Of a DNA stretch of 64,000 bases, positions 13,751 through 60,167 are shown piece by piece (within the stretch, counting starts at the first letter, position 1; the number at the start of each line of letters is the position of its first letter). A program made the position numbers and the translations under genes. The DNA comes from Acidobacteriota bacterium (GTDB taxonomy: Bacteria; Acidobacteriota; Terriglobia; UBA7540): the NCBI GenBank assembly GCA_021838785.1, contig JAKCCV010000004.1, forward strand, positions 1 to 64,000, read 5' to 3'. A model generated the notes under the pieces. That model was not told where the DNA came from. It made no database searches and was given only the letters and a program-made list of their open reading frames with translations.

Positions 13751-16483
13751 ATGTCACGTGCCAACCCCCAAGTGCATAATAGGCTTGTGGCGCAAAGAAC
13801 CCAACCCCCGAGCAATCTCGCAACCTACATCCTCCGCATGGCTGAGGCTGGCGAGCAAACGGCATTCGTTGAGCAAGGTTTATATCGTTCGCAGCGCTTC
13901 AGTTATGCCCGCGTAGTGGAACGAGCGCTCGCCTTTGCTCGCTGGCTCAAAGAACACCATCTTGCCCGCGGAGACTGCGCGCAGGATTCCAAAGTGGTCT
14001 TGTACGCTCGGCCCGGCGCAGCCTGGGCAATGGCCTTCTACGGGTGCGTGCTGGCCGGAACAGTTATGGCCCCGGTGGATGCGGGCTTTTCATCCGATTT
14101 CGTCCGTCAAGTCGCCGAGCACATTGGTGCGTCGTGGGTAATCTGCGACCACGCAACCGAGCGGACGCTGGAGCAATCCGGAATCTCCTGGCCGGTTTCG
14201 CGCTTTAGGCTAGAGGGATTGGATGATTTACCATCCGCCTCGGCAGCCCCGAGTGAGTTGTCGGTCCTTGACCGTCAGGCGCTCGTCGAAATTGTTTACA
14301 CTTCGGGCACCACGGCTCAACCCCGCGGCGTGATGATCACGCACGGAAACCTGCTGGCCAATCTGGAGCCGGTGGAACGGGAAATCCGCCGCTATCGGCC
14401 GCTCAGCCTACCCTTTCGACCTCTTCGGTTCCTGCATCTGATTCCCCTCAGCCATCTTTTTGGGCAGGTGATGGGCTTGTTCATTCCACAATTTCTGCGC
14501 GCGGAGGTGATTTTTCCAGAGAGCCAGGCGCCATCGCAACTGGCGCGCACAATGCGCGAGCGAAAGGTATCCGTGATGGTTTCCGTACCGCAGCAACTCG
14601 AGGCGCTTGGGACGTGGGCGCTGCAAGAGCTCGGCTCGGGAGACAGCCGTCAGGCGGAGGTCCAGATCGAGCAGGCGCAGACGGAGCGTTGGTCGGTCCC
14701 AAAACGCTGGTGGCGGTTTCGCCGTCTGCATCGCGTCCTGGGTTGGAAGATGTGGGCCTTCGTTGTGGGAGGCGCGCGGCTGGCCCCCAGTGTGGAAGCC
14801 TTGTGGAACGCTCTCGGCTACGCAGTAATTCAAGGTTACGGCCTCACCGAGACCGCTCCCGCCATCAGCATTACTCATCCTTTCCGAATCCGACGCGGAG
14901 CCGTCGGCCGTCCACTGGCGGGCGTCGAAACGCGCATCGCCCCGGATGGAGAAATCTTGGTCCGCGGGGAGAATGTCTCTCCCGGCTACTATGGCGATCC
15001 CGAGGCTACGCGCGGCATTCTTTCCGACGGTTGGCTCCATACCGGCGACCTCGGTCGCTTTGATGAAGAAGGCAACCTAATCTACCTCGGCCGAAAAAAG
15101 GAAATGATTGTCACGGCGGAGGGTCTGAATGTTTTCCCAGAAGATGTCGAGGCTGCTCTTCTGAAGCAGCCTGCCATTCGTGAGGTGGCGGTGGTGGGTC
15201 AGGAGTCGAAGACGGCGCCGCTCGGCTCCGGGCGAACCCTTGTTCATGCGGTAATTGTCCCCGCCCGAAGCCGGAATGACCAAGAAATTGAGGCGGCGGT
15301 CGAGGAGGCGAACCGCTCCCTTGAACCCCACCAGCGTGTGCGTGGGTTTTCGGTCTGGCCGCGCAATTCATTACCACGAACCCTCACTACCGGCAAGATT
15401 CAGCGTGCGGCGATTGCCGCCTGGGTCAATGCCTCGCGCGGCGCCGCGGGGGTCCCGCCCGCCGCGCCAACAAGCGGGACCGCCGATTGGCAGCGCTTTC
15501 TAGAGAGCCTGGGCGTCCCGCGCGAACGCCTGCGCCCAGAGGCACGGCTGGCCGAAGACTTAGGGCTTTCTTCTCTCGATCGCGTGGAGTTAATGACTTG
15601 GTTAGAGAGCCAAGGATATCCCGTGAATGAGGAATGGATGGCACAACCCCTCACCGTCGCGGACCTTGAGAAACTTGTCAGAAGTGGAAAGTCGTTCCCC
15701 CTCGAAACTATCCCTGCATCCTCTGCGAATCACGCCGAGATCGCACTCCCCTCCCCATCAACGCCAGGGGCAGACCGGCCGGATTTGAAGCGAGAGCCGG
15801 CATGGACTGTTTCCGCGCTTGCCGTGATAGCGCGCGACCTTCTGCAGCGAGGCTTGGTGTTTCCGTTTCTGCGTTATTACGTTGAGCCGGAATTCGCCGG
15901 CCTTGAGCGGCTTCGGAACCTCCGCCCACCGGTCCTCTTTGTGGCCAACCACCAAAGCTTTTTCGATGCCGCCCTAGTTCAGCGCGCCTTCCCCTGCGGA
16001 TGGCGGCGACGTCTGGCTCCCGCCATGAGCGGCGAGGTCTTCCGAAACCACTCGCCCTTTTCGCTCTTCTTGACCCGGCTGATTTTTAACGGATATTTGA
16101 TCAGTGAGAATCCCGCTCGAGCCCAAGAGGCCTTGCATCGAGCCGGCTGGCTGGCCGAACGGGGCTACTGCACGCTCATTTTCCCTGAAGGTGAACGGAC
16201 CCATGACGGCCACCTGCAGCGTTTCCGGCCCGGTGTGGGTGTGATGGCGGAACGGCTGGGCCTGCCGGTGGTGGCATTGCGGATTGAAGGCTTATACGAG
16301 ATCTGGCCGCCCTCTAATCGTCGTCCGCGCCGCGGCCGGGCGAGGCTCATTGTAGGAGAAACGTTTCACATGGAGCCGGGCGAGTCCGCCGGCGCGTTCA
16401 CCCGCCGCCTTGAAAAGTACTATCGCGAGCAGACAGTCTTCGAACCTCGACCCGCTCAGGAGATTGGGCACTTGGGCAGTTGA
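13751..16483 (+). CDS. Trifunctional fusion: acyl-AMP ligase, acyl carrier protein domain, PlsC acyltransferase
   Basis: Three units are fused in 910 aa. Residues 1-570 are an AMP-forming acyl-CoA/acyl-ACP synthetase with YTSGTTAQPRGVMITHGN (near residue 184), GYGLTETAPA and GWLHTGDLGRFDEEGN. Around residue 608 an acyl carrier domain shows DLGLSSLDRVEL, whose serine is the phosphopantetheine site. The C-terminal third is a PlsC-type acyltransferase with the NHQSFFD box (about 733) and FPEGERTHDG (about 811). The family precedent is Aas, which activates fatty acid on ACP and re-acylates lysophospholipid, but Aas has the acyltransferase first and recruits free ACP. I infer a membrane phospholipid repair or fatty-acid salvage enzyme. 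ATG at 13751 follows GAGGAAACCG. Confidence 0.88.
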   Translation: MSRANPQVHNRLVAQRTQPPSNLATYILRMAEAGEQTAFVEQGLYRSQRFSYARVVERALAFARWLKEHHLARGDCAQDSKVVLYARPGAAWAMAFYGCVLAGTVMAPVDAGFSSDFVRQVAEHIGASWVICDHATERTLEQSGISWPVSRFRLEGLDDLPSASAAPSELSVLDRQALVEIVYTSGTTAQPRGVMITHGNLLANLEPVEREIRRYRPLSLPFRPLRFLHLIPLSHLFGQVMGLFIPQFLRAEVIFPESQAPSQLARTMRERKVSVMVSVPQQLEALGTWALQELGSGDSRQAEVQIEQAQTERWSVPKRWWRFRRLHRVLGWKMWAFVVGGARLAPSVEALWNALGYAVIQGYGLTETAPAISITHPFRIRRGAVGRPLAGVETRIAPDGEILVRGENVSPGYYGDPEATRGILSDGWLHTGDLGRFDEEGNLIYLGRKKEMIVTAEGLNVFPEDVEAALLKQPAIREVAVVGQESKTAPLGSGRTLVHAVIVPARSRNDQEIEAAVEEANRSLEPHQRVRGFSVWPRNSLPRTLTTGKIQRAAIAAWVNASRGAAGVPPAAPTSGTADWQRFLESLGVPRERLRPEARLAEDLGLSSLDRVELMTWLESQGYPVNEEWMAQPLTVADLEKLVRSGKSFPLETIPASSANHAEIALPSPSTPGADRPDLKREPAWTVSALAVIARDLLQRGLVFPFLRYYVEPEFAGLERLRNLRPPVLFVANHQSFFDAALVQRAFPCGWRRRLAPAMSGEVFRNHSPFSLFLTRLIFNGYLISENPARAQEALHRAGWLAERGYCTLIFPEGERTHDGHLQRFRPGVGVMAERLGLPVVALRIEGLYEIWPPSNRRPRRGRARLIVGETFHMEPGESAGAFTRRLEKYYREQTVFEPRPAQEIGHLGS

Positions 16484-16508
16484 CAGACGCGAAACCCGGT
16501 GTTACATT
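16480..16508 (+). promoter_or_regulatory. Sigma-70-type promoter of the B12 riboswitch transcript
   Basis: TTGACA at 16480-16485 and TACATT at 16503-16508 are separated by 17 bases. The -35 overlaps the stop codon of the upstream fusion gene, and transcription would start near 16515, about 25 bases before the riboswitch core. The -35 is perfect and the -10 matches four of six positions. Confidence 0.65.
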
Positions 16509-16534
16509 CACGGTTGTTCTTTGAAAACTCTTGT

Positions 16535-16716
16535 TCCGAGGGTGCCTCGATTGAATCGAGGTTAAAAGGAAAGGCCGTGCAAATCGGCCGCGGTCCCGCC
16601 ACTGTAATCGGCGAGCCGGATTCTCCCGTGGGCGTTATTGCCAGCCACTGTGCTCCACCCGGAGCACGGGAAGGCTGAGGATCCAGCCATGACCCGAGAG
16701 CCAGGAAGCCTGCCCA
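16535..16716 (+). ncRNA. Cobalamin (adenosylcobalamin-type) riboswitch
   Basis: The conserved parts of the RF00174 aptamer appear in order: GGTGCC at 16541, AAAAGGAAAG near 16564, the B12 box CGGTCCCGCCACTGTAA at 16591-16607, GCCACTG at 16644, CGGGAAGG at 16667, and GAGCCAGGAAGCCTGCCC ending at 16715. This order and wording are diagnostic. It senses cobalamin in the cell and turns down the receptor gene downstream. The effect is most likely at transcription, because an intrinsic terminator follows 50 bases later. Confidence 0.95.
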
Positions 16717-16765
16717 GGAATGTAACATAAGCCAACTCTTCGGCGGAAAGAGCGCAGGTATCATG

Positions 16766-16806
16766 CCTTCCAGTTTGAGCTTGAGGAATTGGAAGGCTTT
16801 TTGTTT
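16766..16806 (+). terminator. Intrinsic terminator of the B12 riboswitch expression platform
   Basis: Positions 16766-16776 (CCTTCCAGTTT) can pair over 11 positions, two as G-U, with 16786-16796, leaving a nine-base loop, and are followed by a T-rich tract at 16798-16806. This is a full rho-independent terminator about 160 bases before the receptor start, and I take it as the OFF structure of the riboswitch. Confidence 0.78.
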
Positions 16807-16966
16807 CCGGGTGGCCCACGCTCTTTTTTCCGCCAAGCCCCGCCGAGCGAGCGGGAGAAGGAGCAACGGAGTGAACTTCACACATCCCAAGTCACTTGTC
16901 ACGCAGCAAAAATCCAATTACCTAAAACAATTTTTGCTTCCGAAACCTTTGGAACGGCCCCCCGCA

Positions 16967-19234
16967 ATGGGGCGCGTGGTGGAATGGGTCATACTCGCTG
17001 CCACCTTTTTCTTTCTTGCGGTTGGCCTGGCAGAGGGAGCGACCCTTGCGGGGAAGACGTTGGACCCAAGCGGCCGGGTGGTGGCCAATGTGCGTGTTCG
17101 GCTCATGCACGATCTCGCGCCCCTCGAGGAAACGCGGTCTGACGCTCGAGGCCAATTCGTATTTCACCACCTCAGTCCCGGCAAATACTTCGTGGTCGCA
17201 AATTCGCCGGGAATGTCGGGCACATCGGGCCCCTTTCGAATCGCGCGCCGCACCGAGAAGTTGACCATCCACCTGCGCCTACGCATCAGCGCCGTGCGGC
17301 AGCAGGTCGTCGTATCGGCCTCGCTGGGTGGAGCTCTCGCCTCGCAACTAGGTTCCTCGGTCAGCGTCATCACCCACCGGGAGCTTGAAGATGAGGGAGT
17401 ACAGTACCTATTTCAGGCGCTCCGCGAGGTGCCTGGCGTGGTGGTCAATGAAACCGGTGGGCCCGGCGGCGTGACCAGCGTTTTCGTGCGTGGCGGAAGT
17501 TCCAATTACAACTTGGTCATGGTGGACGGAATCCCCCTGAACGAGTTCGGCGGCGATTTTGATTTTGCTCCCTTGCCCGCGAGTGGAGTGGAGCGCGTGG
17601 AGGTGACCCGAGGGCCGGAAAGCGCCCTTTACGGCTCCGATGCCATCTCAAGCGTGATTAACATTGTCACTCGGCGCGGCGGTGGTCCACTGCACTTCTC
17701 AGGGCTTGAAGAAGTGGGGAGCCACCTTACCCGTCGTTTTGCCACCGCTGGCAGTGGCCTCACCCGAGGCATCAGTTGGGCCTACAATCTTTCCCGTCTG
17801 GACACGGATGGCTTAGTCCAAAACGATCAGTACAGCGATCAAAGCGCCTTTCTAACCCTCGGCTACTCACAAAACCCGCGGCGCCAGTTTCGGTTCAACT
17901 TTTTCGGCAACGCCAATACCGCCGGGGTTCCCGGCCCGTTTGGCTCAGACCCCGACCATCTGTTCCCCGGTATTGACACGATTTCCCGAGACGAGCAGAA
18001 CCTTTTCGGTTATGGAGCAAGTTACGCCGAACAGATTACACCGCGCTTTCGACAGGTGGTGAGCGCCGACGTTTCCCTCAACCGCTACTTCTTCGTCACC
18101 CCGTTTGGCGATTCCTACTCCCACAACCTGCGCGCTGTCGTGAACACTCAGAGCCAAATCGCGCTTTCGAGCCAAGACTTTTTTGTGGCGGGGATGGAGT
18201 ACAATCGTGAGCAGATAAAAAACACCTACATCGCCAATGCCAACAATACTCCTTTTCTTCTGCCGCGCACCAGTTGGGCCGGCTTTGCGGAAAACCGTTG
18301 GGTTCCCGGCCGGCGATTCGCGCTGAACGCCGGCGTGCGCTTTGATGACATTCTCACGCACAGCCTGCCGCCCGGAGCGTTTGGCTCGCGTCCTCTGTTG
18401 CCGGCATCCACGGTCACCGAAGTGGATCCACGAATTTCGGCCGCCTACCTTCTGCGCGACGGCGAGTCGGGCGCCATCGGCCTGACGCGATGGCATGGCA
18501 GTTTCGGGACGGGTATCCGTGCCCCCGACGGCTTTGAGCTTGCCTTCACCAACAACCCGCATTTGAAACCGGAAAAGAGCGTCAGCTTTGACACGGGCGT
18601 TGAGCAGCAGTTTTTCTCCCGCCGAGCGTCCGTGGATGTCACCTATTTCTACAACCGTTTCAAAGACCAAATTGTAGTGCTGGGCGGATCGCTCACGAAT
18701 CTGAGCTCCTTCGTTTCCGACAATCTTGGCAATTCGCGGGCGGAGGGGTTGGAAGTTTCGATGCGGGCTCAACCGGCTCGCTCTCTCACGGTGCTGGGCG
18801 GCTACACTTTTCTGGACACTTCGATTTTGGCGCTCAACGGAGCGGACGTGGCGCTCGCTCCACTGCGGGTGGGGCAACCGTTCTTTCGCCAACCTCGCCA
18901 TTCTGGCTTTTTCAACGTCACGTGGTTGCATGGGCCGCTCATGCTTAACGTCAACGGTTATGTGCGCGGTTCGGTCCTTGATCTGGAGCCCAACTTGGGG
19001 CTTTTTGCCTGCGCGCCGCCGAGCGAAGGCGGACCCGGACTTCCCTGCATGTTTACCAATAAAGGCTATACGCTGGCCAATGGAGGATTTTCTTATCAAT
19101 TCCCTGCGGGCATCCAGCTTTACGGCCGAATAAATAATTTTCTCAATCAGAAGTATGAGGAAGCCCTGGGATATCCCGCGTGGAAATTGAATTTTCTGGC
19201 TGGCATCCGATTCGAATTACCGGCAAAATACTAA
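16967..19234 (+). CDS. btuB: TonB-dependent outer-membrane receptor, BtuB-like (cobalamin-regulated)
   Basis: The outer-membrane receptor binds its ligand and imports it with TonB energy. After a signal peptide (residues 1-25, WVILAATFFFLAVGLAEG) there is a carboxypeptidase-regulatory domain (about 28-110), a plug domain with VFVRGGSSNYNLVMVDGIPL and VEVTRGPESALYGSDAISS, and a 22-strand-type beta barrel to the terminal aromatic-containing strand. Length 755 aa. I chose ATG 16967, since the in-frame ATG 16763 lies directly before the riboswitch terminator and the intervening residues do not look coding. Control by a B12 riboswitch is the main reason to assign cobalamin or cobinamide as ligand; the barrel alone does not prove it. 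The N-terminal regulatory-like domain is typical of acidobacterial and Bacteroidota receptors rather than E. coli BtuB. Confidence 0.85.
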   Translation: MGRVVEWVILAATFFFLAVGLAEGATLAGKTLDPSGRVVANVRVRLMHDLAPLEETRSDARGQFVFHHLSPGKYFVVANSPGMSGTSGPFRIARRTEKLTIHLRLRISAVRQQVVVSASLGGALASQLGSSVSVITHRELEDEGVQYLFQALREVPGVVVNETGGPGGVTSVFVRGGSSNYNLVMVDGIPLNEFGGDFDFAPLPASGVERVEVTRGPESALYGSDAISSVINIVTRRGGGPLHFSGLEEVGSHLTRRFATAGSGLTRGISWAYNLSRLDTDGLVQNDQYSDQSAFLTLGYSQNPRRQFRFNFFGNANTAGVPGPFGSDPDHLFPGIDTISRDEQNLFGYGASYAEQITPRFRQVVSADVSLNRYFFVTPFGDSYSHNLRAVVNTQSQIALSSQDFFVAGMEYNREQIKNTYIANANNTPFLLPRTSWAGFAENRWVPGRRFALNAGVRFDDILTHSLPPGAFGSRPLLPASTVTEVDPRISAAYLLRDGESGAIGLTRWHGSFGTGIRAPDGFELAFTNNPHLKPEKSVSFDTGVEQQFFSRRASVDVTYFYNRFKDQIVVLGGSLTNLSSFVSDNLGNSRAEGLEVSMRAQPARSLTVLGGYTFLDTSILALNGADVALAPLRVGQPFFRQPRHSGFFNVTWLHGPLMLNVNGYVRGSVLDLEPNLGLFACAPPSEGGPGLPCMFTNKGYTLANGGFSYQFPAGIQLYGRINNFLNQKYEEALGYPAWKLNFLAGIRFELPAKY

Positions 19235-19258
19235 AATAGACAGAAGGAGGTCGGAAAC

Positions 19259-19783
19259 ATGCTCTACCTGATCGTGGCTTTGGCGGCGTTAGCTCGGTTC
19301 GCCCCGCATCCGCCGGATTTCAGCCCGGCCTATGCGGCCTTGCTCTTTGGCGGCGCGTGCCTCAGAAAACGCGACTCGATCTGGTTCCCGGTTGCTGTGC
19401 TGGCGGTGAGCGACTTTCTGCTCACGACCGCCATTTACGGGATGCACTTTGGCTGGGCGGACACGATGGATTGGGTCGGCTTTGCCGCGGTGGCGCTGGT
19501 CGGTTGGTGGCTGCGGGAGAAAATCTCCCTCAGGAGGGTGGTGGCCGCTTCACTGGCGGGCGGTGCTGTCTTTTTCCTCATCAGCAATTTTGGCGTGTGG
19601 ATGGGAGGGCTGTTGTATCCTCGCACCGTCGCCGGACTCGGGGTGTGCTTTGTGGCTGCGCTGCCGTTCTTGGGAAGCACGCTACTGAGCAGCGTGCTCT
19701 TTAGCGGCGTGCTCTTTGGCGCCTACGAGTACTATCGTCGCCGCGCCCGCCGGCTAAGCCAAGTTGCCGCCTCCTCGAGGTAG
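19259..19783 (+). CDS. DUF6580-type membrane protein, candidate S-component-like transporter
   Basis: The 174-aa protein is almost entirely hydrophobic, with about five to six membrane segments (for example residues 1-15, 40-58, 68-84, 95-113, 120-140 and 142-160). It contains LARFAPHPPDFSPAYAALLFGG and FFLISNFGVWMGGLLYPRTV, which I recognise as hallmarks of the DUF6580 putative transporter family, resembling ECF substrate-binding (S) components. AAGGAGG lies upstream of the ATG, and only 24 bases separate it from the btuB-like gene, so it is in the same B12-riboswitch transcript. I infer inner-membrane passage of cobalamin or a precursor; this is not established. No ECF ATPases or BtuCD genes are nearby. 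Confidence 0.75.
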   Translation: MLYLIVALAALARFAPHPPDFSPAYAALLFGGACLRKRDSIWFPVAVLAVSDFLLTTAIYGMHFGWADTMDWVGFAAVALVGWWLREKISLRRVVAASLAGGAVFFLISNFGVWMGGLLYPRTVAGLGVCFVAALPFLGSTLLSSVLFSGVLFGAYEYYRRRARRLSQVAASSR

Positions 19784-19785
19784 CG

Positions 19786-19803
19786 CCGCCGAGCGGCGGT
19801 TTG
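19786..19803 (+). terminator. Weak intrinsic terminator after the B12 operon
   Basis: CCGCC-GAGC-GGCGG at 19786-19799 forms a short GC hairpin followed by only three T residues. It lies between the convergent DUF6580 and BtuF-like genes. Confidence 0.4.
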
Positions 19804-19863
19804 GGCGGCCGTTCCATTGCCGGGTATTCCCACGCCAAACTCTCGCGTGGTCACGCGCTCGCG

Positions 19864-20775
19864 CTACCGCAGAGGCGCGAGCGCTTCGGCGGGGATGGCG
19901 TCGGTGAAGATGCCGGGATGGATTGCTGCCGCAAGGATCTCAACCCCCTGAGCGAGGCGAGGTCCGGGGCGCGAGAAATAGCTGGTGGCATCCACCGCAT
20001 AAACCCGCCCGGCGCACACGGCCGGCAAAGTGTTCCAGCGGTGCGGAAAGCTCATGCCGCGGAACTCCTCAACCGCCTCGCGGAGGTGGTAGCCGCAGGG
20101 CATAATGACAATCACCTCGGGCTGGGAGCTCAAAACCACCTCCCAGTCGGCCCGATAGCCCGGCTCGCCGGTTTTACCTAGCACGTCCGTGCCTCCCGCT
20201 TTGGCTACCATTTCCGGAACCCAATGCCCGGCGATGAACGGCGGATCAAGCCATTCCAAACACAGCGTGCGCGGACGAGCAGGCGCCTGGGCAACAGTTT
20301 TTTCCACCGTCTCGACCCTCCGGCGGCATTCTTCTGCCAAACGCTGAGCTTCACTTTCGCGCTCCGTGACGCGACCTATCGCCCGGATATCATTCCAGAT
20401 ATCGTCGAGCGTCCGCGGGTTGAGTGAAATCGTCCGCGGCACGGAAGCGAGCGCGGCCAAGGCCGAACCTAAATCATCCGGCGAAGCGGCGCACACACGG
20501 CAGAGGTCTTGGGTAATGATAAGGTCGGGCCGCAGTTCGCTCAGCGCGAGAGCGTCCACCACGTAAAGGCTTTCGCCGCCCGCCATGGAGTCCGTCACGC
20601 GGCGGTCAATCTCGCCCGCGCTCAGCCCCTTGGGCAAGCGTCCCCCCACCACGACCCGCTTCTGGCGGGCTTCGGGCGGGAAGTCGCACTCATGCGTCAC
20701 GCCCACGACCGCATCGCCCAGGCCCAGCCCAAAAAGAATTTCCGTCGCCGAAGGAAGAAACGAGCAGATGCGCAT
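19864..20775 (-). CDS. BtuF-like periplasmic-binding-protein-fold protein without signal peptide
   Basis: The fold is the class III helical-backbone binding protein family used for cobalamin, siderophore and heme ABC importers. The sequence starts directly at the mature-like RICSFLPSATEILFGLG and contains VVGVTHECDFP and IITQDLCRVCA, typical of the 'cobalamin-binding protein' subgroup. Length 303 aa. There is no signal peptide or lipobox, so unless the start is misread the protein is cytoplasmic. The ATG at 20775 directly precedes the conserved core, leaving no room for an export signal. Its position, convergent with the B12-riboswitch operon, supports a cobalamin-related role. No permease or ATPase gene accompanies it. 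Confidence 0.82.
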   Translation of the reverse strand: MRICSFLPSATEILFGLGLGDAVVGVTHECDFPPEARQKRVVVGGRLPKGLSAGEIDRRVTDSMAGGESLYVVDALALSELRPDLIITQDLCRVCAASPDDLGSALAALASVPRTISLNPRTLDDIWNDIRAIGRVTERESEAQRLAEECRRRVETVEKTVAQAPARPRTLCLEWLDPPFIAGHWVPEMVAKAGGTDVLGKTGEPGYRADWEVVLSSQPEVIVIMPCGYHLREAVEEFRGMSFPHRWNTLPAVCAGRVYAVDATSYFSRPGPRLAQGVEILAAAIHPGIFTDAIPAEALAPLR

Positions 20776-57266: not shown

Positions 57267-57329
57267 AGGAAAGCAGCACGGGTGCCAGGGATGGGAGGCA
57301 AGCGCATCGAGTGTTAACCAAGCCCAGCG

Positions 57330-57520
57330 ACCTCGTTAGGCAACGTTGCCGCGCAAACCTAGGCCACGGCCCAGAAACTCGCCGACGGGCCAATGGGCGA
57401 AGCCAAGACGGTCAGATGTTGGCGTTGTCAAAAGTGGCTGTTGAAAAGGGAAACGACCTTGTGGGGAACCAAAGCTCACACCAGGACGCCCGAAACTCGA
57501 GCGGCGATTCCGCTCAGGAG
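57330..57520 (+). ncRNA. M-box (ykoK-type) magnesium riboswitch
   Basis: The conserved aptamer wording appears: CGTTAGG at 57334, CCTAGGCCACGGCCC near 57358-57372, AGAAAC, GCCGACGGGCCAATGGG near 57381-57396 and the following purine-rich segment. This matches the M-box aptamer core of mgtE/ykoK leaders (GUUAGG, GGCCACnGCCC, GACGCCAAUGGG). The downstream gene encodes MgtE domains, as expected. At high Mg2+ the RNA should turn expression off. A six-pair hairpin GAGCGG/CCGCTC (57499-57515) lies at its 3' side and abuts a Shine-Dalgarno, so control could be at translation of the uORF. The aptamer borders are estimates. Confidence 0.82.
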
Positions 57521-57526
57521 AAAGGA

Positions 57527-57649
57527 ATGCCTTGTGGCCGCCGCGGCGATAAGGGTTTTGGTGGTGACCTTGCCAAGCCCCAGCGCCATGCTCCCGGGCG
57601 AGCCGGCCGACGGCAAACCGCTCTGATCGCAACCATGAGGGACCCATGA
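57527..57649 (+). CDS. Candidate 40-codon upstream ORF coupled to the MgtE-domain gene
   Basis: ATG 57527 has AGGAG (57516-57520) six bases upstream, directly after the hairpin of the M-box platform. The frame is open to TGA 57647-57649, which overlaps the ATG of the next gene at 57646 as ATGA. The peptide, about MPCGRRGDKG... to ...TALIATMRDP, is basic and contains several prolines. A role as leader peptide or translational relay is inferred from layout and resembles, in position only, Mg2+-sensing leader peptides of mgtA/corA. It could also be a non-functional frame. Confidence 0.45.
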   Translation: MPCGRRGDKGFGGDLAKPQRHAPGRAGRRQTALIATMRDP

Positions 57650-58887
57650 TTTATTTCACCGAACTTCAAAACCTGCCCATGTTTGACGTGCGGGGCGAAT
57701 ATCTGGGCCGATTGGTGGATTTGGTCGTTGATCCGGGACGCAATTCACTGCGCGTCGCATCGTATCTGGTCAAAACACCTTCCAATGCGTTGCTGTGCAT
57801 TACGCACGAGCAAGTGCAGTCCATCTCGGTTCGAGCCGGACAAACTTCGGTGCCTCGCGGCGAATTGCGCTGCTATTCGCCCGACGAAGGATTATTGCAC
57901 CTCAAAAAAGACGTGCTCGATCAGCAAGTCATTGACGTGAATCATCGCAAAGTGGTCCGCGTAAACGATATAGATTTGGACATCGTTCCCACCGACGGCC
58001 ACACGGACCTCCGAATCTTAGGCGTGAATGTGGGCCTGGCGGCCGCCGTGCGCCGGTTGCTCCAGGGGCTGACGGCCAAGCATACCCTGCGGCGCCTTTC
58101 CAGCCTGTTTCCTTCCAAAACGATTCGCTGGGAGTTCGTCAACCTGATTGAGCCAGATCCCGCGCGCCGGCTGAAGCTCAAGCTGTCGTCGGATCGCCTC
58201 GCCAAGCTCCATCCGGCCGATCTCGCCGACATCCTCGAGCAGTTGAGCCGCGATGAGCAACGGGCCGTGCTGGAGACCTTGGACGAGGAAACCGCCGCCC
58301 AAGTCATGTCCGAAATCCCGGCTCATCTTCAGGCGACTCTCGTCGAGAGCTTCGGCCCGCACAAAGCCGCCGATATTGTGGAACAAATGCCTCCCGATGA
58401 GGCTGCCGACTTGCTCCAGGAGCTGCCGCCGGAAACCTCGGCCGAGCTGTTGGCGGATATGGAAAAAGAGGAAGCCACGGAGGTCAAGGAACTGCTCGGC
58501 TTTGAAGAAAACACGGCGGGCGCCCTCATGACCACGGAATACGTCGTGGTGGGAGAAACGGCGACGGTGGGCGGATTGATGGAAATCTTGAAGCACTTCG
58601 AGGGAAACATTGAGTCCGTGCACGAGGTCTATCTCATCAACTCGGAGGCCACGCTTATTGGCGCGGTGCCGCTGGCGCGCATTCTGCTGGCCGCCCCGGA
58701 CACCCAACTGCTGACCCTCGCCAAAGACCCTCTCCTTCAGGTTTCGGCCCACGCCGACGCCAAAACCGTCGTGGACTTGTTTCACAAATACAATCTTCTG
58801 ACGCTACCGGTGGTGGACGATCATAACCGCCTTATTGGTGTGATTACGGCGGACGACGTCCTTGAACTGGTGGTGAAGCGGCACTGA
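57646..58887 (+). CDS. Soluble MgtE sensor-module protein: PRC barrel, MgtE-N and CBS pair, no membrane pore
   Basis: Three units are visible in 413 aa. Residues 1-95 resemble a PRC-barrel (LGRLVDLVVDPGRNSLRVAS). Residues about 180-285 form the MgtE-N helical superfamily domain with AKLHPADLADILEQLSRDEQ and ADIVEQMPPDEAADLLQELP. Residues about 285-413 are a CBS pair with GALMTTEYVVVGETATVG and LPVVDDHNRLIGVITADDV. In MgtE these cytosolic domains bind Mg2+ and close the channel. Here the protein ends right after CBS2; the five-helix pore of full MgtE (about 450 aa) is missing. It precedes a permease gene (stop/start TGATG), so it likely gates that permease. Start ATG 57646 overlaps the uORF stop. 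Confidence 0.88.
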   Translation: MIYFTELQNLPMFDVRGEYLGRLVDLVVDPGRNSLRVASYLVKTPSNALLCITHEQVQSISVRAGQTSVPRGELRCYSPDEGLLHLKKDVLDQQVIDVNHRKVVRVNDIDLDIVPTDGHTDLRILGVNVGLAAAVRRLLQGLTAKHTLRRLSSLFPSKTIRWEFVNLIEPDPARRLKLKLSSDRLAKLHPADLADILEQLSRDEQRAVLETLDEETAAQVMSEIPAHLQATLVESFGPHKAADIVEQMPPDEAADLLQELPPETSAELLADMEKEEATEVKELLGFEENTAGALMTTEYVVVGETATVGGLMEILKHFEGNIESVHEVYLINSEATLIGAVPLARILLAAPDTQLLTLAKDPLLQVSAHADAKTVVDLFHKYNLLTLPVVDDHNRLIGVITADDVLELVVKRH

Positions 58888-60167
58888 TGGCCAACTCCCG
58901 CCCCATCCCTAAAAAACTGCGCCACTGGCGTCGCAATTTCCTCATCTTCCTTTCCATCTTGGGCCCCGGCATTATCACTGCCAATGTGGACAACGACGCC
59001 GGAGGCATCTATACCTACTCCGTCGCCGGGGCCAAGTTCGGCCTGACGCTGCTGTGGACGCTCATCCCCATCACCGTCGCCCTAATTGTCGTGCAGGAAA
59101 TGGTGGCGCGCATGGGCGCGGTGACCGGCAAAGGCTTGGCCGACCTCATCCGCGAGGAATACGGCTTCCGCACCACGTTCATCTTAATGGCCTTTTTGAT
59201 AATCGCGGACTTCGGCAACACGGTGACCGAATTCGCCGGCCTCGCTTCCGGCATGTCGGTGTTTCACGTCACCCGCTACATTGCGGTTCCGCTGGGCGCC
59301 TTGCTGGTGTGGACCTTGGTAGTGAAAGGAACGTATCGTTCGGTAGAAAAGGTCTTCCTGGTCGCGTGCGTTTTTTACATTGCCTATCCCATCTCCTGTT
59401 TTCTCGCCCATCCGGATTGGGGTCAGGCGGTGCTGAGCACGGTCAAACCCACCTTTCAGTTCAACGCCCCCTATTTGTACATGTTTGTCGGCGTGGTGGG
59501 CACCACCATCGCTCCCTGGATGCAGTTCTATCTTCAATCGGCGGTGGTGGAAAAGGGAATCAAGCTTCGGGATTACGTCTATTCCCGCTGGGACGTTATT
59601 GTCGGCTGCATCTTCACCGACGTGGTGGCTTTCTTTATCATCGTCGCCTGCGCCGCGACGCTTTACGTGAGTGGCCATCGTCACATCAAAGACGCGGGCG
59701 ACGCTGCCATAGCGCTGCGCCCCTTGGCGGGCCACCTGGCCAGCGCGCTGTTTGCCTTTGGCCTGTGCAATGCTTCCATCTTTTCCGCCTGCATTCTCCC
59801 CCTGGCCACGGCCTATTACGTCTGCGAAGGGCTGGGCCTCGAATCCGGCATTGACAAGCGCTTCCATGAAGCCCCCACCTTCTATTATCTTTATACGGGC
59901 CTGATTGTGTTGGGCGGGTTGGTCGTCATCGCCCTGAAAGAATCCGACCAAGTCCCCATCATCCTTCTCTCCCAGGTGGTCAACGGCATCCTCTTGCCTT
60001 TTGTTTTGATCTTTATGTTACGGCTCTGCAATCGCGAGGACTTGATGGGCTCCTATCGCAATACCCGCGCCTTCAACGTGATCGCCTGGGCCACCTCCGT
60101 GTTGATGATTGGCCTGACGCTGCTGTTGGCGGTCAGTTCCTTCTTTCCGGGCGGCGTGCCGAGCTGA
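58887..60167 (+). CDS. NRAMP-related magnesium-type transporter
   Basis: The 426-aa protein has 11 helices in the NRAMP arrangement. The helix 1 metal motif is NDAGG (Asp37-Ala-Gly-Gly40) instead of DPGN, and helix 6 has TTIAPWMQF (Ala209-Pro-Trp-Met) instead of the MPH motif. Loss of Asn and Met with retention of Asp is what distinguishes the Mg2+-transporting NRAMP relatives (NrmT/NRMT) from manganese and iron NRAMPs. The gene is under an M-box and its ATG overlaps the stop of the MgtE-sensor gene. I infer Mg2+ uptake controlled by that sensor protein. Mn2+ co-transport remains possible. The protein also has FLSILGPGIITANVDNDAGG, ending at the motif. Confidence 0.88.
   Translation: MANSRPIPKKLRHWRRNFLIFLSILGPGIITANVDNDAGGIYTYSVAGAKFGLTLLWTLIPITVALIVVQEMVARMGAVTGKGLADLIREEYGFRTTFILMAFLIIADFGNTVTEFAGLASGMSVFHVTRYIAVPLGALLVWTLVVKGTYRSVEKVFLVACVFYIAYPISCFLAHPDWGQAVLSTVKPTFQFNAPYLYMFVGVVGTTIAPWMQFYLQSAVVEKGIKLRDYVYSRWDVIVGCIFTDVVAFFIIVACAATLYVSGHRHIKDAGDAAIALRPLAGHLASALFAFGLCNASIFSACILPLATAYYVCEGLGLESGIDKRFHEAPTFYYLYTGLIVLGGLVVIALKESDQVPIILLSQVVNGILLPFVLIFMLRLCNREDLMGSYRNTRAFNVIAWATSVLMIGLTLLLAVSSFFPGGVPS

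Follow-up and report, generated by a model that had tools for sequence, protein, structure and literature searches.

Many bacteria that require vitamin B12 and possess the outer-membrane receptor BtuB have no BtuCDF, and the protein that carries the vitamin through their inner membrane is unknown (PMC6072759); undiscovered B12 transporters have likewise been inferred in another study (PMC2667541). The same question is raised by a 64,000-nucleotide stretch of DNA from an Acidobacteriota bacterium (positions 1 to 64,000 of contig JAKCCV010000004.1, assembly GCA_021838785.1; this whole stretch is called here the window), in which a cobalamin riboswitch precedes genes for a TonB-dependent receptor and for a small membrane protein of the DUF6580 family, next to a convergent gene for a BtuF-like protein. 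We propose, with a probability of about 0.85, that this operon is an import system for B12 (corrinoids) and that the DUF6580 protein would act in it as a solitary inner-membrane carrier replacing BtuCD. The proposal is built on the anatomy of the operon, its riboswitch, the predicted fold of the protein, its conserved gene context and its exclusion with BtuC.

An original prediction, made from the sequence of the window, had described a riboswitch transcript with a TonB receptor and a small membrane protein, and family searches bore this out: the RF00174 aptamer (Table 1) is the single cobalamin riboswitch of the host genome, the receptor has Plug and barrel domains, and the small protein belongs to PF20221 (DUF6580), with 151.3 bits against a gathering threshold of 27. 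The receptor is, as would be expected of BtuB, a TonB-dependent receptor under cobalamin control; its top NCBIfam match is TIGR01779 (BtuB), at 149.6 bits and below the equivalog cutoff of 599.7. The DUF6580 gene starts 24 bases after the receptor stop and encodes the sole inner-membrane candidate within the riboswitch operon. It had also been claimed that BtuCD is missing, a btuCD locus outside the window being named as what would speak against the proposal. Such a locus was looked for and is absent, and the claim extends to the whole genome (3.42 Mb, completeness 98%), which has no FecCD/BtuC permease above cutoff. The lone FecCD match of the genome, below cutoff, proved to be an ABC-3 family permease and was rejected as a BtuC. 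The genome encodes a methylmalonyl-CoA-mutase-type B12 domain (TIGR00640, above the NCBIfam cutoff), and therefore uses B12; CbiC was sought in it and not found, so synthesis of the corrin ring is probably impossible there. A PduO-type adenosyltransferase was not found in the genome either (the BtuR type was not searched for). The closest relative as judged by this locus is an Acidobacteria metagenome-assembled genome (locus L033), whose DUF6580 protein is 62% identical and whose gene order is the same, riboswitch-btuB-DUF6580 with the convergent BtuF-like gene.

The small protein had been called S-component-like, and its structural model agrees with that description. The AlphaFold2 model, built with 21 homologues, has a predicted local distance difference test score of 96.5 and a predicted template modelling (TM) score of 0.89. 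When it was compared by Foldseek with the Protein Data Bank (PDB; 350,542 chains), the first match was BtuM with hydroxycobalamin (8ovv; TM 0.69, probability 1.00, identity 19%), followed by the energy-coupling factor (ECF) S-components PanT, ThiT and RibU, so that the four top ranks are all vitamin proteins of the S-component fold. Thus, the DUF6580 protein is predicted to have the ECF S-component fold. The loops that join helix 2 to 3 and helix 4 to 5 carry positive charges, as does the tail, and both termini would therefore lie in the cytosol, as in BtuM (PMC6072759); by prediction the protein thus has the six-helix S-component fold with two cytosolic termini that is expected of the BtuM family. 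In an alignment of 110 sequences R13, G82, W114 and G126 are invariant and P16, H17, D52, N110, Y120, P136 and F153 are conserved above 90%, and many of the conserved residues belong to L1, helix 3 and L5 or flank them. The only common cysteine is C130, at the start of helix 6 (88%), and the L1 histidine is conserved at 93%; one might speculate that H17 and C130 are cobalt ligands. A chain found by a DUF6580-only profile search of the PDB (8uo8, E 0.003) was dismissed as a transmembrane chance match, and a plasmid and phage search gave no close relative. NCBI may label some DUF6580 proteins as 'putative transport protein', and we found no substrate assignment. A literature search for DUF6580/PF20221 returned no paper naming the family, which is not listed in the main text of a survey of S-component folds (PMC11109136). 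No sequence link to DUF6580 was obtained from the name BtuN, used in a Rhodocyclus paper.

The resemblance to BtuM of Thiobacillus denitrificans (PMC6072759) goes beyond the best structural match, as both proteins have about 20 kDa, six helices and a B12 context, and both occur in hosts with neither an ECF module nor BtuCDF. Unlike BtuM, DUF6580 has a far wider taxonomic spread, and the two share no significant sequence similarity: two profiles gave no BtuM chain at E≤10. Compared with BtuCDF, the system would perform the same transport step, under the same type of riboswitch, with the same BtuB partner and with a BtuF-like fold encoded next door; however, its membrane protein is unrelated and not a FecCD-family permease, it has no ATPase and its BtuF-like protein has no signal peptide.

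If DUF6580 replaces BtuCD, the two should tend not to occur together, and this was observed. Among 347 genomes of the phylum, DUF6580 was found above cutoff in 47 and true FecCD, defined in this analysis as E<1e-20, in 294. The table of DUF6580 by FecCD, [[35,12],[18,282]], indicates mutual exclusion (Fisher p=1.2e-24), also when one family (f2) is left out (p=8e-10). The 35 genomes with DUF6580 and without FecCD span nine family-level groups; therefore, the exclusion is not the effect of one lineage. As the FecCD family includes siderophore and heme permeases, its presence need not mean BtuC, and its absence is the informative state. In the class of the host (40 genomes) DUF6580 occurs in 29, none of which has CbiC; the 11 others have FecCD in three cases (G187, G202, G345) and CbiC in eight, all of one genus, and no genome is without all three. 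Such a pattern would arise if genomes obtained B12 by one or another of three routes, DUF6580, BtuCD or self-synthesis. Outside this comparison, true FecCD is missing in 39 of 50 DUF6580 genomes reached via loci of many phyla.

The original prediction had suggested a survey of many genomes for DUF6580 occurring together with B12 riboswitches and btuB, and the outcome was strongly positive. When 84,980 species genomes were scanned, at least 584 loci were obtained, of which the best 80, from many phyla, formed the sample. Riboswitches were called by cmscan, since a simple box regular expression undercounted them, missing adenosylcobalamin (AdoCbl)-II and short variants. A same-strand riboswitch of a B12 class was found in at least 37 of the 80 loci (21 of the 80 lay outside cmscan), with about 0.36 riboswitches expected by chance in 0.95 Mb, and the strand bias was marked (44 on the same strand versus 4 on the opposite one; sign test p=1.5e-9). 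The riboswitch lies immediately 5' of DUF6580 in L041, L042, L048, L081, L089, L096, L099 and L112, and an AdoCbl-II riboswitch does so in L040, L049 and L108, from Levybacteria and Woykebacteria. Same-strand BtuB-like genes were present in 21 of the 80 loci, cobalamin adenosyltransferases in 10, BtuF-like genes in 8, NrdJ-like reductases in 6 and BtuC in none; 45 loci have at least one same-strand B12 hallmark. A DUF4465 protein adjoins DUF6580 in the Bacteroidota-type loci L041, L089 and L095, and this family was shown to bind B12 (PMC13398666).

In the candidate-phyla loci L040, L049, L105 and L110 the gene order is nrdJ-DUF6580-pduO, similar to the nrdJ-cbrS-cbrT-pduO cluster of L. delbrueckii in which CbrT, the B12 S-component of ECF-CbrT (6fnp), was recognised (PMC5997447). 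The L040 reductase passes TIGR02504 (AdoCbl-dependent). Together with L108, these Levybacteria and Woykebacteria loci combine an AdoCbl-II riboswitch, nrdJ and DUF6580 and, except in L108, pduO; judged by gene content, the cluster would give these very small genomes a complete minimal module for the use of B12. Three other arrangements were observed. In L051 (5496-8884) a cobalamin riboswitch is followed by genes for NRDD (a class III, anaerobic ribonucleotide reductase), DUF6580 and an adenosyltransferase of the BtuR type, which looks like a B12-controlled choice of reductase. In two Bacteroidota riboswitch operons a Cys_rich_CWC protein of about 70 residues is encoded directly 3' of DUF6580 (L041 1608-1811, L042 8539-8748). 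In L015 (598-1992, minus strand; G287:C30), directly behind a cobalamin riboswitch, the DUF6580 open reading frame is continued, with no intervening stop codon, by the signal peptide and plug of a BtuB; this is either a true gene fusion or an artefact of assembly.

Several observations weigh against the proposed role. The Foldseek E-value for BtuM is just 0.042, and sequence profiles give DUF6580 no significant relative in the PDB: a 53-sequence profile retrieved one chain, 6fnp_A of the ECF-CbrT structure, at a non-significant E of 4.1, and hhalign aligned DUF6580 with CbrT on a fragment (probability 55). The S-component fold is also found in receptors and in MreD (PMC11109136). The BtuM family is defined by a cysteine in loop 3, Cys80, that is invariant and ligates the cobalt (PMC6072759); BtuM needs it, and the 110 DUF6580 sequences have no conserved counterpart. 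With neither this cysteine nor sequence homology, DUF6580 would stand outside the BtuM family, yet it would work like BtuM. As to the genomic evidence, the 80 loci are the most similar matches and not a random sample, and 35 of them, including the Acidobacteriaceae branch, have none of the local B12 hallmarks looked for. Other neighbours are stable in some branches. The genomes compared are phylogenetically non-independent, and the Fisher tests ignore relatedness; moreover, about one quarter of the DUF6580 genomes of the phylum also have FecCD. In G287 the two genes are on one contig, 2.6 kb apart, and therefore can coexist. The hallmark-free branches possibly have other substrates or unlinked B12 genes; the distribution over whole genomes still points to a B12 role in the Acidobacteriaceae. 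The neighbours seen in such loci are a VTT-domain membrane protein in Acidobacteriaceae (L071 4805-5473), YceI and DUF4956 proteins in some Balneolota (L059), and an HD/OB protein in a Neomarinimicrobiota group (L077).

Four other explanations were considered. The DUF6580 protein could be a true S-component that relies on the motor of an ECF or ABC system from another locus, as its match to ECF S-components and the spacing of small residues in helix 1, which resembles the AxxxA motif, would allow. This is unlikely, since no CbiQ/EcfT (the ECF T component) was found in the host genome, in a search whose controls were positive in 10 of 14 cases, and no motor genes were seen among the neighbours examined; CbrT, in contrast, needs an ECF module of EcfT and two ATPases. 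Slightly less probable is that the protein imports a precursor or lower-ligand fragment, such as cobinamide or alpha-ribazole, and not complete cobalamin. The S-component CblT is, we assume, an importer of alpha-ribazole, and both the fold class and the riboswitch control are compatible with this. BtuM and CbrT also take cobinamide (PMC6072759, PMC5997447). However, a genome with neither CbiC nor BtuC still needs a protein for transport of the corrin itself, and the BtuB and adenosyltransferases encoded beside DUF6580 act on whole corrinoids. A still smaller chance is given to DUF6580 being a B12-regulated accessory or sensory protein while the vitamin enters by an unrelated route, for example a transporter of the SbmA/BacA type: BacA imports cobalamin in mycobacteria (PMC10960864), the SbmA/BacA family was outside the searches made, and S-component folds also act as receptors (PMC11109136). 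Against it, the exclusion with FecCD over many families and the complementarity with B12 synthesis are the signature of a carrier, and the protein of the window bears no signalling domain. Cobalt transporters are often under B12 riboswitches, and CbiM has a related fold (Foldseek rank 46); a role of DUF6580 in cobalt transport for B12 synthesis was rejected, because none of the 29 genomes of the class with DUF6580 contains CbiC, so that they need no cobalt for corrin synthesis, and because the neighbours are btuB and adenosyltransferase genes.

Thus, the solitary carrier is the preferred explanation, and the earlier suggestion that DUF6580 may provide the inner-membrane step is supported. Its substrate, direction and ATP independence, and the part of the BtuF-like protein, are what we infer in the following scheme. 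At low levels of coenzyme B12, the riboswitch would let transcription read through the hairpin that follows it, and the BtuB-like receptor, judging by its family and its riboswitch, would bring B12 into the periplasm. The periplasm-facing loops of DUF6580, with the conserved R13, P16, H17, D52, N110, W114 and Y120, may bind the corrinoid, and the protein would move it over the inner membrane in the stead of BtuCD. Binding and, where an adenosyltransferase is encoded alongside, adenosylation would retain B12 in the cytosol, where the signal-less BtuF-like protein may hold the corrinoid as a sink or chaperone.

The convergent gene, which lies outside the riboswitch transcript, had been described as BtuF-like, without export signal and perhaps cytoplasmic, and the sequence supports this description. 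Its product is predicted to fold like BtuF and the heme-binding class III binding proteins, to which it is also matched by sequence, and it is the only Peripla_BP_2 protein found in the host genome. An in-frame stop lies three codons upstream of the start and the N-terminus aligns with that of mature Escherichia coli BtuF; therefore, the protein has no signal peptide for periplasmic export, and a cytoplasmic location is supported by its sequence. Among its relatives the motifs HEC, QxxCxVCA and CG are invariant, and the four conserved cysteines (HEC, CxVC, CG) have no counterparts in the aligned E. coli BtuF. Where the N-terminus of a copy can be read, at most a short lead precedes RI(V/C)SL. 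The gene also adjoins DUF6580 in further loci of the phylum (L003, L009, L018, L020, L021), usually in the same direction. Signal-less BtuF-fold proteins with four cysteines were seen in the window, L003, L021, L038, L057, L067, L070 and L092, and from these features they are a distinct, putatively cytosolic family and not plain BtuF. The original prediction had named a cobalamin chaperone or sensor as its possible role. For a cytosolic corrinoid-binding sink or chaperone, the simplest reading, we see about even odds; a sensor may also be considered.

The features of the locus are collected in Table 1. The promoter matches the consensus at 10 of 12 positions, with TG preceding the second hexamer, and the aptamer begins 15 bases downstream; two promoter-like sites were found in 4.6 kb, versus 0.8 expected. 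The hairpin, recognised by inspection as its loop exceeds the length limit of the automated scan, is probably the transcription-attenuation expression platform. Because it occupies positions 16765-16806, the receptor probably starts at 16967, with signal peptide MGRVVEWVILAATFFFLAVGLAEG, rather than at the first ATG of its reading frame, 16763. Elsewhere in the window an M-box (Mg) riboswitch (57325-57494, plus strand, 60 bits) lies upstream of two plus-strand genes (57646-60167). Visual inspection of these suggests an MgtE N-domain-like protein of the CBS/PRC type and a transporter resembling NRAMP.

Table 1. Features of the DUF6580 locus, with positions in the window
Feature	Position	Strand	Basis
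Sigma-70-like promoter TTGACA-17-TACATT	16480..16508	+	Consensus match only
Cobalamin riboswitch aptamer RF00174, full length	16523..16731	+	97.7 bits (gathering 31.5), E 3.8e-23
Terminator-like hairpin GCCTTCCA...TGGAAGGC and T-run	16765..16806	+	12-pair stem
BtuB-like TonB-dependent receptor with signal peptide, 755 residues	16967..19234	+	Plug and barrel domains
Shine-Dalgarno AAGGAGG of the DUF6580 gene	19244..19250	+	Sequence
DUF6580 protein, 174 residues, six predicted helices	19259..19783	+	PF20221, E 3.6e-44
BtuF-like protein, 303 residues, no signal peptide	19864..20775	-	PF01497 (Peripla_BP_2)

As a solitary carrier, DUF6580 would fill the importer gap in Acidobacteriota, Bacteroidota, Ignavibacteria, Balneolota, Omnitrophota, some Lysobacterales and bacteria of candidate phyla. 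A bolder and doubtful extension is that it represents a third, phylogenetically broad class of B12 inner-membrane importer, which in Acidobacteriota, Balneolota and Ignavibacteria would be coupled to a cytosolic BtuF-fold sink giving direction to an ATP-free carrier, that is, a binding-protein-dependent importer turned inside out. For metabolic reconstructions the family would be a marker of B12 auxotrophy, and it may provide a second, cysteine-independent case for ATP-free transport by solitary S-components.

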